A stretch of 64,000 bases of DNA, taken from assembly GCF_024518835.1 (NCBI RefSeq), contig NZ_JANIGO010000003.1, positions 310,001-374,000 on the forward strand, given 5' to 3'. Positions within the stretch are counted from its first letter, which is position 1, and the number at the start of each line of letters is the position of its first letter. Shown here one piece after another: positions 46,687 to 52,125 of this stretch. Origin of the DNA: Limnobacter humi (lineage in GTDB: Bacteria; Pseudomonadota; Gammaproteobacteria; Burkholderiales; Burkholderiaceae_B). A program made the translations under genes and the position numbers. Under the pieces are notes generated by a model. The model saw nothing but the letters and a program-made list of their open reading frames with translations. It was not told where the DNA came from and did no database searches.

Positions 46687-47178
46687 TCAACCCTGCTTAC
46701 CCTGGCCCGACCGGAACAGTGCGCTGTATTCAAAAGGCCGAACCACCTGAGCGGATATTTTTGACGCAGCAGGATGCAAGGGATTGATCAGTGCCACACA
46801 CTCTTCTGGAACAATCACAGAAGGCACCAACAAAATGGGTGAGCGTTGGCTTGTTAACCAATCAGACCCAAACTTTGCGCTGGTTTGTCCAGCAGGAATA
46901 CTCGACCAACCCTTGGGAAGCTTGGCAATGTCGGCCACCTCATGCTGCGCCCACACCGCAGCAGGCACATCAATACTCACCAAAAAGCGATTCAGTGGTA
47001 AACCAGCATCATTGATGTGTGCAGCGGTTTCTAGTACTGCCAACGCAATGCTGGGCGAGCAATACAGAACGGGTTGTTGATATGTGTTCCACCGGCCTGG
47101 GAACAAGGCTGCCCCAGTGCCGCTCAGGTCGTTTGCAAGCCGTGATCGCGTTTTGCTTGCAATACGCCACAACTTCAC
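46687..47178 (-). CDS. RES-domain toxin
   Basis: A 163-residue RES-family protein, the toxic partner of Xre/MbcA/ParS-type modules; characterised members degrade or modify NAD+. The RES residues are visible: LWRIASK at the start, GRWNTYQQPVLYCSPSIALAVLE (Arg, Tyr and Glu of the active site) and a later Ser. I start it with the GTG at 47178, whose GTGA overlaps the stop of the antitoxin gene, so translation is coupled and homologous starts agree. Its 3' end faces livF. Confidence 0.88.
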   Translation of the reverse strand: MKLWRIASKTRSRLANDLSGTGAALFPGRWNTYQQPVLYCSPSIALAVLETAAHINDAGLPLNRFLVSIDVPAAVWAQHEVADIAKLPKGWSSIPAGQTSAKFGSDWLTSQRSPILLVPSVIVPEECVALINPLHPAASKISAQVVRPFEYSALFRSGQGKQG

Positions 47179-47702
47179 AAATAGGCTCCGCTTTGAAGAG
47201 CACCCAGCACACGGCACACCAGCTCAATACCTGTTGGTGTATCTAAAAGCTCAGACGGTTTTTGCCCGCCCAAGGCGGGCTGAGGTTGCTCTATCCACTG
47301 CCCCAACCACTTCACCACATCAAACTGGTCAGCACTGGGTGCAGTGCTGTCATCCACAATACTTTGCGCAACCGTGATGAGCTTAATCATTCCAATTGCG
47401 GCCAAGCCTGCCCGTCCATCCAACACAACACCCGGCGCGGCTTTACGTGCTGCTGTTGCTGGTGGAATGCGCAGCATTTCGTAAATGCGTTTGGATGGGA
47501 TATCCATTCGCTGAGACAAATCTGCTATCACAGCGCCGGGCACCCCCGCCCGCTCCATCTCGACCAATTCAAGCGGGCTGGCGTTGTACACCGCCCTTAC
47601 ATAACTGTCGATACCACCTTTAGTTTTCGTGGACTGCGCAGATGAGGGAAGCACAGGTTTGGCTTTGCGAGTACGTAAAGTTTTTTGGAGAGCAGTCGTC
47701 AT
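47175..47702 (-). CDS. Xre/MbcA/ParS-type antitoxin
   Basis: The 175-residue partner of the RES toxin. The N-terminal third is basic and flexible (KTLRTRKAKPVLPS). The middle (VIADLSQRMDIPSKRIYEMLRIPPATAARK) looks like the Xre-like HTH of this antitoxin family. The C-terminal toxin-binding domain ends with the diagnostic LLDTPTGIELVCRVLGALQSGAYL-like segment, read in parts. The ATG at 47702 has an AGGGG box and is preferred to the ATG 15 nt upstream, which has none. A perfect 10-bp palindrome lies 18 bp upstream and is a candidate autoregulatory operator. Confidence 0.85.
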   Translation of the reverse strand: MTTALQKTLRTRKAKPVLPSSAQSTKTKGGIDSYVRAVYNASPLELVEMERAGVPGAVIADLSQRMDIPSKRIYEMLRIPPATAARKAAPGVVLDGRAGLAAIGMIKLITVAQSIVDDSTAPSADQFDVVKWLGQWIEQPQPALGGQKPSELLDTPTGIELVCRVLGALQSGAYL

Positions 47703-47720
47703 GAGAAGCCCCTGCATAAT

Positions 47721-48317: not shown

Positions 48318-48630
48318 GCTAAAACCCTCCACTCTGGGCCGATGCCCGGTTCACGTTCTCTTTAGTGGCCATTTGGTCGGCTGTGGTTCATGCTTTTGGG
48401 CATTGTCAATCGATCTGCTTAGGTCGACGGCTTCAACTTGGCTAACGTATTGCCCCTACTTGGTATCCGTTGGTTTTCGCTCGATGGCCGAAGCGAAGTA
48501 CTGCACTTCAGCCACCTTGCTGTGCAGAGAACAGTGTCATCAACAGCGTGAATTTTGGATGTCAATCAACACGTATTTCAAGGAAATGGAAAAGAAAAAA
48601 CCCCAACCAAATGGTTGGGGTTTTTCGTGT
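48318..48630. other. Non-coding stretch between the hypothetical gene and the tRNA gene
   Basis: These 313 bp contain no convincing gene in either direction; open frames that cross it run into the tRNA. The only structured element is the tRNA terminator hairpin near its right end. It may be a remnant of integrated DNA beside the tRNA. Confidence 0.5.
48594..48622 (-). terminator. Rho-independent terminator after the tRNA gene
   Basis: Read on the minus strand, CCCCAACC-ATTT-GGTTGGGG is followed by TTTTTT, starting about 10 nt after the tRNA CCA end. The same inverted repeat followed by five T on the plus strand could also act in that direction. Confidence 0.8.
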
Positions 48631-48915
48631 TGGTGGGCCCGCAGGGACTTGAACCCTGGACCAAAGGATTCGGGTTTGTGTGACTTTCGCCACTCCCTGG
48701 ACTATGCCTTCACCGTAGCTTTCGCCTTAGGTGGGTGCCGTCTAGTCTCTACACCTTCAACGACGCTTTCGCATCGAAGCTTGGCTCGGCGTTGCCGTAT
48801 GCGTTACCGCACTTAGGGTTCGCCGAATTTGACACCATCCCATACGCCGTTTCCAAACGTACGGCACAACTTAACGCTATGAGTCCTCTGCTCTGACCAA
48901 CTGAGCTACAGGCCC
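48631..48915 (-). tRNA. tRNA with CAU anticodon (probably tRNA-Ile2), interrupted by a group I intron
   Basis: The 5' exon is 48915-48879 and the 3' exon 48670-48631. Joined they give a 77-nt cloverleaf with encoded CCA. The acceptor is GGGCCTG paired with CGGGCCC (one G-U pair) and the discriminator is A. The D arm is GTAGCTCAGTTGGTCAGAGC. The anticodon stem GAGGA/TCCTT closes loop CTCATAA, and the T arm is CAGGG-TTCAAGT-CCCTG. The anticodon CAU could be Met or lysidine-modified Ile. The body matches what I remember of betaproteobacterial tRNA-Ile(CAU), and the known Azoarcus intron sits in that same tRNA, so Ile2 is favoured. The exon break falls directly 3' of the anticodon. Confidence 0.93.
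48671..48878 (-). ncRNA. Group I self-splicing intron (subgroup IC3-like) in tRNA(CAU)
   Basis: A 208-nt insertion between anticodon nucleotide 36 and A37. Read 5' to 3' on the minus strand it contains GGGATGGTGTCAAATTCGGC, then AACGCCGAGCCAAGCTTCG, GAAGGTGTAGAGACTAGACG, GGCACCCACCTAAGG and CATAGTCCAGGGAGTGGCG, ending ...CACACAAACCCG. These are the P3-P4-P6-P7-P8-P9 core segments of the Azoarcus pre-tRNA-Ile ribozyme, remembered rather than aligned. GNRA loops are visible: GTAA on TGCG/CGCA (P5 region), GAAA on CGATGC/GCGTCG (P6) and GCGAAAGT (L9). The last intron base is G, the 5' exon ends in T, and a GUG 12 nt into the intron can pair with exon CAU, leaving the U-G pair expected at the 5' splice site. 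No homing endonuclease gene is present. Confidence 0.95.
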
Positions 48916-49016
48916 GAAACTACAGCACCGAAAGCCCCGAAGTGGCAACCTGTCGGTGGGCCGTTCTCTGAGCAATACATGCGCCAGACAACGATTTTAC
49001 TTCCCGCCAAGGTGGG

Positions 49017-49052: not shown

Positions 49053-52016
49053 TTACTCGCCTTCCAGGAAGCTCTTGAGCTTGTCGGAACGGCTGGGGTG
49101 GCGCAGCTTGCGCAGTGCCTTGGCTTCAATTTGGCGAATCCGCTCGCGCGTCACGTCAAACTGCTTGCCCACTTCTTCCAGCGTGTGGTCGGTGCTCATC
49201 TCGATACCAAAGCGCATGCGCAGCACCTTGGCTTCGCGGGGTGTGAGCGAATCGAGCACGTCCTTGGTCACAAAACGCAGGCTGCTGTATTGCGCAGCAT
49301 CTTGCGGTGCCAGGGTCACGCTGTCTTCAATGAAGTCGCCCAAGTGCGAATCATCATCGTCACCAATCGGGGTTTCCATCGAAATGGGTTCCTTGGCGAT
49401 TTTGAGGATTTTACGAATTTTGTCTTCGGGCATTTCCATGCGTTCGGCCAGGGTTGCTGGGTCCGGCTCAATACCGGTTTCCTGCAAAATCTGGCGGCTG
49501 ATGCGGTTCATCTTGTTGATGGTCTCAATCATGTGAACCGGAATTCGAATGGTGCGAGCCTGGTCAGCAATTGAGCGGGTAATCGCCTGGCGAATCCACC
49601 AGGTGGCGTAGGTCGAAAACTTGTAACCCCGGCGGTATTCAAACTTGTCCACCGCTTTCATCAGGCCCACGTTGCCTTCTTGGATCAGGTCCAGGAATTG
49701 CAGACCACGGTTGGTGTACTTCTTGGCAATCGAAATCACCAAGCGCAGGTTGGCCTCGATCATTTCACGCTTGGCCATGCGAGCCCGGTTTTCACCGGAT
49801 ACCATCTGCTTGTTGATGGCCCGCAGGTCGGTCAACGGCAGCGACACGGCGTCCTGAATGCTGCGCAACTTGCCCTGCAATTCATTGATGGCGGGAATAT
49901 TGCGCACAAAGGTTTCAGACCATGCGGCGCTGTGGCCGGAAAATGCATCCACCCATTTGCCTGACACTTCATGACCGCGGAACTGCTCCAGGAAATACTC
50001 CCGCGGAATGCCCACACGGTTCACGCAGATGTCGTAAATCTCGTTTTCGAGTTTGCGCACACTATCCACCTGCTCACGCAGGATGCTGCACAAACGCTCC
50101 ACTTGCTTGGCCGTGAAGCGAATTTTCATGAACTCGTCGGCAATCGCATCCTTGGCTTTTTTGTAAGCGGCAGAATTGTAACCACCATCGCCACGGGCCT
50201 TGGCCATTTTGTCAAACTGCTTTTCAATGTCGGCAAACACCGCCAGTGAGTTTTTCTTCAACTCCTCAAGCTGTTTGGCCGACATGCCTGAGGTGCTGCC
50301 GCTGCCTTCTTCGCCTTCCTCGTCTTCTTCATCATCAACGTCGGCTGAGGCCTCGGTGTCTTCAACGGGCAGGCTGTCGTCCATGTTGGGGTCGACAATG
50401 CCATCCACCACTTCGTCCACCGACAGAGTGCCTTCGGCAATTTTCTTGCCCAGGGCTACCACATCTTCGACAATGGCTGGGCAGGCGGAAATGGCTTGCA
50501 CCATGTCTTTCAGACCAGCTTCAATCCGCTTGGCGATTTCAATCTCACCTTCGCGAGTCAGCAATTCAACCGTGCCCATTTCACGCATGTACATGCGAAC
50601 TGGGTCTGTGGTGCGTCCAAATTCAGAGTCCACGTTGCTGAGTGCTGCCTCGGCTTCTTCCTCTGCGTCTTCTGCAGAAGTGCCCACGGGTGCATTGTCG
50701 TTCATCAACAGGGCTTCCGCATCGGGCGCCTGTTCGTACACGGTAATGCCCATGTCGTGGAAGGTGCTGACCATGGCTTCGATCACTTCGCCATCGGTCA
50801 CTTCGTCGGGCAGGTGGTCGTTGATTTCAGCAAACGTCAGGTAGCCACGCTCTTTACCCATTTTGATCAGGGTCTTCAGCTGTGTGCGACGCGCTTCCAA
50901 CTCCTGTGCCGTGGCTGTGCTGGACGACAAATAGGCTGAGTTGATCAACGCTTTGTCTTTGGCCTTGGCGCCCCGACCGCGCTTCACCGGAATGACCAGG
51001 TCTGCTTTCTTCGCGTCGCTGTCATCTTCCTCGGTCAACACATCGCTGTCGATGCTGTCATCGGCCACGCCACTTGCCTCAATGTCCTCGCCCTCTTCGA
51101 GCTCAGCCGCTGGTTTACCGGCTTTGGGGGGACGACCACGGCCCTTGGCCGCCACGGTTTCTACAACTTCAACCTCGGACTTGGGTTTACGTCCGCGCTT
51201 TTTTGGGGTCTCTTCAACTGCCATGTCTTGAACAATCGCTTCTTCAGCTTTGAGCGCACGACCACGCTTGGCGGGGGATTCCACCACAGGTGCAGGCGCC
51301 ACGGATTTTTTCGGGCTGGCCTTGGCAGGTTCTGCCTTGGCTGCAACGGGTTTGGTGGACTTGCCAGGCTTGTCCACCGGTTTGGATTCTTTACTGGCCT
51401 TGGCTGCGGCTTTTGGTGCAGGCTTCGGAGCAACTTTGCCGCCAGCCTTGCCCGCTGGCTTTGGAAGCGCTTTCGCAGCGGGTTTTGCAGCGGCTTTTGC
51501 AACGGGTTTGGCAGGTGCTTTCGCAGCCGTTGCCTTGGCAGGTGTCGCTTTCGCCGGGGCCTTGGCTGCCGGCTTTGCTGGTGCCTTGGCAGCCGCTTTG
51601 GTCACCGCTTTGGTCACCGCTTTGGCCACCGCCTTCGCAGGCGCTTTCACGGGTGCAACCGCCTTCTTGGCCGGGGCCGCTTTTTTCCCAACACTGCCCT
51701 TGCTCTCAACCACTTTGGCACTCGCCTTTTTTGCGGTTTCTGTTTTCTGGGTCACTGCAGGCTTCTTGGCAGCCGCTTTTGAGCTGGCCGGGACAACCTT
51801 GTGTGACGAAACCTTCTTCCCTACCATTGACGACGCTCCCTTGTGCTTCGTGGATTGCCCGGCACTGTGATCTGCAGTGGACGGTGAATCTGGAATGTGG
51901 GTTTGAGAATGGGCGTTTTGCTGCACCGCCGAACGTTTGTTGCCAGACTTGCCTTTGTGGTCGGAATCGAGTTTCTGTTCCTGGTTTTTCGAAAAAATGT
52001 TGAGAATTTTGAACAT
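49053..52016 (-). CDS. rpoD: RNA polymerase primary sigma factor RpoD, with long histone H1-like N-terminal extension
   Basis: The 987-residue housekeeping sigma factor. Region 1.1 starts near residue 377 ([20 protein letters not shown]). Region 1.2 is [16 protein letters not shown]. The acidic non-conserved region follows. Region 2 contains [19 protein letters not shown] and [16 protein letters not shown]. Region 4 has [20 protein letters not shown]. Everything needed for -10/-35 recognition is intact. The unusual part is the first 370 or so residues: Lys/Ala/Pro repeats (KAPAK-, KPAAKA-like) plus AT-hook-like KKRGRKPK and KGRGRPPK. Starts at 52016 (AAAGGGA box) or 51827 (GGGAG box) are both plausible; the shorter form loses 63 residues. 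It is the last gene after rpsU, yqeY and dnaG. Confidence 0.95.
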
Positions 52017-52125
52017 TGATTCCCTTTGGAACACCGATTGAACCACTCAACACCGACAAACTGCCGCATGCCCAGCCTTGTTGGACTGCACATTGCGCGG
52101 GAAAAACCCGCACTCTAACCCTTAA

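Follow-up and report, generated by a model that had tools for sequence, protein, structure and literature searches.

A group I intron in the tRNA-Ile(CAU) gene of Limnobacter humi and its probable arrival on an integrative element

The split tRNA gene and its intron

The minus strand of the window (the whole 64,000-nucleotide stretch of Limnobacter humi DNA that was analyzed) carries a 77 nt tRNA(CAU) gene at 48915–48631, into which 208 nt are inserted directly after the anticodon. An earlier note on this DNA had described the gene with exactly these coordinates, leaving the strand unstated, and had read the insert as a group I intron of the Azoarcus type. The gene lies behind rpoD, and a RES–Xre gene pair is close to it. 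The features of the region, all on the minus strand, are:

49053..52046, minus: rpoD (sigma-70 type), a frequent upstream neighbor of tRNA-Ile(CAU); an ORF named by reading its protein and conserved beside the tRNA
48590..49001, minus: putative transferred cassette of 86 bp of upstream DNA, the split tRNA and the terminator; 91.8% identical to L013 (Gulbenkiania) and L063 (Dechloromonas)
48879..48915, minus: 5′ exon of tRNA-Ile(CAU), ending with the anticodon CAU (ARAGORN and sequence; same as exon 1 of L029 and L063)
48865..48881, minus: P1, exon CAU plus AGC pairing with GUUGUG, U–G at the 5′ splice site (MFE fold; U–G in 38/38 rows)
48671..48878, minus: group I intron of 208 nt (RF00028 match, covariation over 38 introns, ORF list)
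48734..48836, minus: P3 (48836–48831 with 48739–48734), enclosing P4–P6; six pairs, invariant in 38/38 rows
48700..48747, minus: P7 (48747–48743 with 48704–48700); five pairs, invariant in 38/38 rows
48631..48670, minus: 3′ exon including the encoded CCA (ARAGORN and sequence; same in L013, L063 and L029)
48592..48624, minus: terminator-like hairpin and then a T run, downstream of the tRNA (sequence)
47175..47717, minus: Xre/MbcA/ParS-type antitoxin, possibly left-over cargo (PF09722, E 4.1e-12)
46687..47217, minus: RES-domain toxin, possibly left-over cargo (PF08808, E 1.5e-28)

The gene is easily overlooked, as the note had anticipated for tRNA finders: ARAGORN without intron search reports no tRNA at all in the window, and with intron search it returns tRNA(cat) at 48915–48631 with an intron of 208 nt. 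An Rfam scan of the window at the gathering threshold also gives nothing. In a 551 bp search with relaxed thresholds RF00028 spans 48882–48678 end to end (46.4 bits), so that the covariance search which the note had proposed gives an E-value of 1.1e-10 but a score under the gathering cut-off of 50; at E ≤ 10 this intron is the single RF00028 match in the genome. Default tRNA finding and the Rfam cut-off can together conceal an essential gene. The intron's own strand has no ORF of at least 60 aa, and a 166 aa ORF on the opposite strand extends into it. The fold of 48625–48920 beats 200 of 200 shuffled sequences (z −2.6).

A group I core of P3 to P8 with P7 (presumably the guanosine-binding helix, as in other group I introns), a U–G pair at the 5′ splice site and a terminal G were all found. 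The GNRA loops named in the note are present as well, and the U it had placed at the 5′ splice site is the exon's final base, which pairs with a G in P1. For comparison a set of 49 introns of 195–300 nt (lengths from ARAGORN) was taken from loci called CAU, window included; L025, L046 and L052 were left out as outside this range or mis-joined. The 38 introns with less than 95% identity were aligned, each extended by the final six bases of its 5′ exon (L013 was left out), and helices P1 to P9 were assigned by hand on the window row. Paired cells amount to 95.3% of 2148 in this alignment vs 85.6% when shuffled, where the structure is drawn on the window sequence and so favors it; 26 of the 58 pairs are altered on both sides, and slid versions of the structure bring pairing down to 27–43%. 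The P3, P7 and P8 pairs are invariant over the 38 introns, that of the window included, and since they never vary they are uninformative by covariation. P2, P6a, P9 and the three inner P5a pairs vary, with pairing mostly kept. The note's remark that the peripheral stems keep their pairing holds to that extent and fails for the two outer P5a pairs, which are lost in 15 and 11 of the 38 rows. One P4 pair is broken in 15 rows and P6 pairs are broken in 5–11 rows. The terminal base is G in all 49 introns. The assignment to group I is supported by the conserved core, the U–G pair of P1, the terminal G and the compensatory changes, and the intron is predicted to splice. A related MAG locus (L076, genome G066) has a split tRNA whose intron is just 81 nt long, lacks most of the core and adjoins a run of N; it represents either decay or misassembly.

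RNA catalysis is often studied with the Azoarcus ribozyme as a model; the BH72 intron is a small class IC3 intron with GAAA loops, inserted after the anticodon of tRNA-Ile(CAU). The window intron is presumably of this type, with the same tRNA, the same insertion point, small size and GAAA loops. To our knowledge, there is no established explanation for the presence of such introns in the anticodon loops of bacterial tRNA genes or for their spread in the absence of a homing enzyme. One source names the pre-tRNA-Ile group I intron of Azoarcus sp. BH72 and treats group I introns in bacterial tRNA genes as known (PMC3984707). No account of an element origin for the BH72 intron was found in the literature searched.

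Related loci and the ends of a putative integrative element

In 64 stretches of DNA a motif scan gave 65 exact matches to the intron core motif, and ARAGORN reported an intron-containing tRNA for 55 of these matches and none for 10. Four of the 55 were not called CAU; the remaining 51 and the window make up 52 split loci, of which 36 have rpoD upstream and 50 have enough upstream sequence to be judged. In 22 of these 50, a truncated tRNA 5′ half that reaches the anticodon precedes the split gene. Behind rpoD of L013 (Gulbenkiania mobilis) and of L063 (a Dechloromonas MAG) stands a resident 5′ half that ends ...GGACTCATAAT. This half is not the same in the two loci, but the DNA after it is common to both and leads to an intact split tRNA. 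The automated test found no 5′ half in the other 28 loci, among them L046 and L052, which do have one on reading and in which ARAGORN had mistaken this remnant for exon 1; counting both gives 24. As a control, 30 fetched loci and 14 loci of the genus were examined; 39 of them have an uninterrupted gene, and 2 of these 39 carry a 5′ half. The difference (22/50 vs 2/39) has a Fisher p of 2.7e-5, which is too small, since the loci share ancestry, some of them lie in the same genome, and only exact matches to the core motif entered the scan. In the relatives, the replacement tRNA inside the left end is of the same isotype as the cut one, tRNA(CAU). The intron is not required in such an element, since L219 and L233 combine a 5′ half with an uninterrupted replacement tRNA; a rule that it is always present was rejected on this ground.

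Two further features of these loci may be mentioned. In the left ends of L019, L026, L054 and L075 (with a variant in L021), the DNA that separates the resident 5′ half from the split tRNA contains direct repeats, for example GCTTACACACCGCTTACACACC, which may be integrase arm sites. Downstream of another split tRNA, 5′-truncated introns occur in L022 (+1798), L023 (+3816), L062 (+2541) and at G649:C1:1631294-1631376; a 3′ exon stands behind them in L022, L023 and L062, and the truncation points differ. These are perhaps older replacement tRNAs left by tandem insertion.

For the opposite end of the element, 80–120 kb of downstream DNA were fetched for four loci, those with a 5′ half among ten read other than the window. 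The expected 3′ half was present in all four, at 8.1 (G570), 2.7 (G449), 20.7 (G649) and 32.4 kb (G297) into the fetched stretch, which gives element sizes of about 8.6, 2.8, 21 and 33 kb, respectively. The split locus of G570 is that of L013, and the ends of G297 and G649, two genomes of a single genus, are nearly letter for letter alike, so the four amount to about three independent cases. When the two halves are joined, ARAGORN calls tRNA(cat) in all four, with 6 or 7 of 7 acceptor pairs. Both junctions share CTCATAA, the anticodon loop, and the shared sequence is longer in G570 (CTCATAAT) and G449 (CTCATAATCC). Across the four elements attL and attR have 7–10 bp in common, too little for a full tRNA at either junction, and the tRNA gene is not rebuilt. 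G449 combines two tRNA types, one as the cut resident and the other as the supplied gene.

Thirty hand-picked proteins were compared with Pfam and 20 with PADLOC. Tyrosine integrase domains (PF00589) were found in L015 and L050, and in L050 a 5′ half, the split tRNA and the integrase gene stand in a row; for L019, L051 and L066, which are relatives of L015, Pfam gave no hit at 0.001. An integrase match lies within 5 kb in 9 of the 52 loci, four of these being the query proteins, four being pieces of 47–74 aa and one being 175 aa long. The G297 element has matches to ZorA, ZorC and ZorD, a C5 methylase and an AspBHI/Mrr-type nuclease, and its integrase-like protein has no Pfam hit. The Gulbenkiania element encodes a DNA methylase, an SNF2-type helicase and a RadC-like protein, with no integrase seen in it; the G449 element has a RES–Xre pair, L038 an AbiU-like protein and L046 a type I methylase. 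PADLOC matches number 6 of 10 (E 1e-3) and 2 of 10 (E 1e-15), and the window Xre protein has none.

These loci suggest how such an element may work. A tyrosine integrase would recombine the anticodon loop CTCATAA within a resident tRNA-Ile(CAU) gene, mostly behind rpoD, and would leave the 5′ half of that gene at one end of the element and the 3′ half at the other, the gene never being rebuilt. The element would supply a complete tRNA-Ile(CAU) about 100–250 bp inside its left end; this gene usually has the intron, in which case it would have to splice to serve the host. The element would also bring cargo, in several cases anti-phage genes (Zor, restriction–modification, AbiU-like) or toxin–antitoxin genes.

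Probable origin of the window copy and the host's presumed reliance on it

In the window itself neither a resident 5′ half nor a 3′ half is present, the joined core has no match in the genome, and no integrase was found among the three downstream ORFs scanned. At the rpoD loci of the same genus, 12 of 14 have an uninterrupted tRNA-Ile(CAU), two have none (one of these was read over 375 bases only), and none of the 14 has the intron; the last genome of the genus, G150, gave a weak rpoD-like hit only. The slot behind rpoD holds a 76 nt form in eight of the twelve (L117, L119–L124, L128) and a 79 nt form with a long D loop in four (L116, L118, L125, L126), a pattern that might reflect repeated replacement of the gene. 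The exons of these relatives, as far as they can be aligned, are 80–89% identical to those of the window.

By contrast, the block 48590–49001 is 91.8% identical over 416 aligned columns to L013 and L063, whose rpoD proteins are 65–67% identical to that of the window, and the match to element sequence ends 51 bp before rpoD. The intron alone is 98.1% identical to that of L013 and 97.6% to that of L063, and in the intron tree the window groups with L013, L063, L029 and two divergent rows (95/95). In a sample of 268 genomes of the family, only the window's genome has a full-length match among the matches listed; the next best of those listed, G257, is cut by a contig end and has a 5′ half and then a split tRNA. 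An order-wide sample of 399 genomes has an intron match in 17 at E ≤ 1e-12 and in 11 at E ≤ 1e-30, L. humi itself being included in both counts. The earlier note's reading is thereby supported and yet incomplete: the 14 rpoD loci of the genus lack the intron, the cassette matches loci in other families, and these resemble integrative elements with a replacement tRNA.

We estimate a probability of about 85% that the locus holds a working group I intron and that the split tRNA-Ile(CAU), the only copy found, came as a replacement tRNA on an integrative element. The part of this reading that can be read from sequence comprises the intron and its pairing, the lack of any uninterrupted copy found, the cassette identity across families, the tRNA halves at both ends in relatives, and the integrases and cargo in some of them; splicing, the action of an integrase, the direction of transfer and the dependence of the host are inferred. 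The window copy is read as an element remnant that has lost both ends and turned resident gene: the left end of the element, the resident halves and any integrase would be gone, and the split tRNA would now be the resident. The nearby RES–Xre pair could be left over from its cargo. Its kinship with the RES–Xre pair of the G449 element is by domain only, since a tblastn search with the RES, Xre and 130 aa proteins of the window gave nothing at 1e-4 among the other loci compared.

An ordinary resident intron of the Azoarcus type, inherited vertically and unconnected with mobile elements, is improbable, though such a gene might look much like the present one: the split tRNA lies 32–85 bp behind rpoD with no 5′ half in L035, L037, L049, L065 and L072 (32–50 bp in the first three, as ordinary residents do), and the window copy likewise has no remnant. 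Vertical descent fits poorly with the lack of the intron at all 14 loci of the genus, with 98% intron identity to a genome of another family, and with a match that reaches 86 bp upstream of the tRNA into what is element-internal sequence in L013 and L063. It is slightly less probable still that the intron alone entered a resident tRNA by reverse splicing or homing. Genomes of the same family have related introns in tRNAs called Thr(tgt) (L077), Ser(tga) (L078) and Leu(taa) (L084), and therefore this intron type does spread between genes. The intron was nevertheless set aside as the sole unit of transfer, because the match extends to the exons and flanks: L013, L063 and L029 have the same exon 2 as the window, and the exons of the genus relatives reach just the 80–89% given above. 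In addition, the intron strand has no ORF of 60 aa. The least probable alternative is a decayed intron that no longer splices, with another tRNA reading AUA codons, for which the sub-threshold Rfam score and the 81 nt intron of L076 might speak, and against which stand the invariant P3, P7 and P8 pairs that the window shares, a TilS homolog above its cut-off in the genome and the failure to find another tRNA-Ile(CAU).

The search for such a tRNA covered genome G000 (99.7% complete), which has 37 RF00005 hits, 28 of them typed and the other nine (82–90 nt long) left out. Two of the typed hits are CAU tRNAs: L157 is initiator-like, and L149 is read as elongator Met because it is without the C4/C5 bases. 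These bases mark the lysidine tRNA, and by this rule and by exclusion the split tRNA is read as the lysidine type, tRNA-Ile(CAU). A genome-wide search for the joined exons with up to three mismatches found just two sequences, both with TTT in place of CAT. An uninterrupted tRNA-Ile(CAU) elsewhere in the genome, which the earlier note, in combination with a lack of spliced product, had counted as telling against its reading, was therefore found neither among the 28 typed hits nor with the joined-exon pattern. The host would then depend on the split copy. Among the 11 intron-matching genomes of the order sample (E ≤ 1e-30, L. humi included) the uninterrupted pattern is absent in nine; L. humi matches just a tRNA-Lys-type TTT sequence and G502 just the sequence GGAATCATAATCC, read as Met. 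The same pattern has no match in 64 of all 399 genomes, so its absence is weak evidence for any single genome.

The core motif also occurs in 10 viral contigs, all of which have a split tRNA by ARAGORN; by its calls only, six are CAU (L104–L107, L109, L111) and four are Gln, Pro or Leu (L108, L110, L112, L113). A phage donor of the window copy was set aside, as the viral contigs have no resident 5′ half in the 340 upstream bases; they indicate that phages carry such tRNAs, and donation of the window copy is not implied. Plasmid and phage records gave 8 and 7 partial matches, respectively, none spanning 80% of the query.

Known systems and a possible role for the intron

In tRNA-dependent lysogeny, established by experiment for mycobacteriophages in actinobacteria (Guerrero-Bustamante and Hatfull 2024, PMC10865867), the cut tRNA stays broken and a complete tRNA of that isotype comes with the integrating DNA, which the loci described here would appear to parallel. 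The actinobacterial phages were studied by experiment, whereas the present cases are Burkholderiales islands seen as sequence, and their replacement tRNA is split, an arrangement not described in that paper, where the only occurrence of the word intron is in the list of references. The loci suggest that tRNA-dependent integration extends beyond actinobacterial phages to Burkholderiales islands, some with defence genes. By this analogy, the new feature here would be the group I intron within the supplied tRNA.

The tRNA-targeting genomic islands collected by Islander have a tyrosine integrase, as proposed for the present elements, and, like them, an anticodon-centered attachment site and a leftover tRNA fragment (PMC4383910). 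In those islands the island sequence restores the cut gene, whereas here the cut gene is unrestored and a complete extra gene is supplied. A third parallel is an archaeal mobile element that brings a tRNA intron, for which a model of protection has been put forward (Sugahara et al. 2012, PMC3293823); that paper cites Randau and Soll for the proposal that introns in archaeal attachment sites are protective. The notion of an intron in the attachment site that blocks further integration is common to that case and to the reading offered below. The archaeal intron interrupts a tRNA that has been rebuilt, at a single locus of a single population, whereas here a group I intron lies in a separate, supplied gene in many lineages. 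No literature linking split replacement tRNAs to integrative elements in bacteria was found in the open-licence literature, most subscription papers lying outside the scope of the search, and searching the text of papers for the core motif gave no result.

Tentatively, the intron might be a device that makes the replacement tRNA immune to the same element and to re-targeting by its rivals. The integrase would need the anticodon loop and both arms of the anticodon stem, and the intron would shift the 3′ arm away; after splicing the supplied gene would still yield a normal tRNA. In 38 of the 49 introns, the sixth or seventh base of the attachment core is broken. CTCATAA is intact in 11 of the 49, where only the following 3′ stem arm is displaced, and none goes on with AAT; a claim that every split tRNA lacks an intact core was dropped for this reason. 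We have lowered our already modest expectation for the immunity reading somewhat because of these 11 introns, in which only the arm is lost, and of the uninterrupted replacements in L219 and L233. If the reading is true, the ribozyme would be attachment-site armor that binds host to element, which would explain the persistence of small, ORF-less group I introns in bacterial anticodon loops. The loci in any case tie anticodon-loop introns to elements that appear to break the same tRNA at the same loop, which would offer both a vehicle and a possible selective reason.

Several related arrangements were observed. The tycheposons of Methylophilaceae, which are comparable islands, begin with tRNA-Met(cat) and a xerD-type recombinase (PMC10872708), and the word intron is absent from that report; their slot may be the same as that of L040. 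The split tRNAs of L033, a MAG named Klebsiella pneumoniae, and L051, a Nevskiaceae MAG, are nearly identical, and the former name looks like a binning or labeling error. Finally, L080 (G213) and L081 (G254) of the same family as L. humi have a different, longer intron in what by eye is tRNA(CAU), called Pro and Arg by ARAGORN. In L080 the gene is cut after CTCAT and preceded by a 5′ half; the layout of the element may therefore be common to a second intron lineage.
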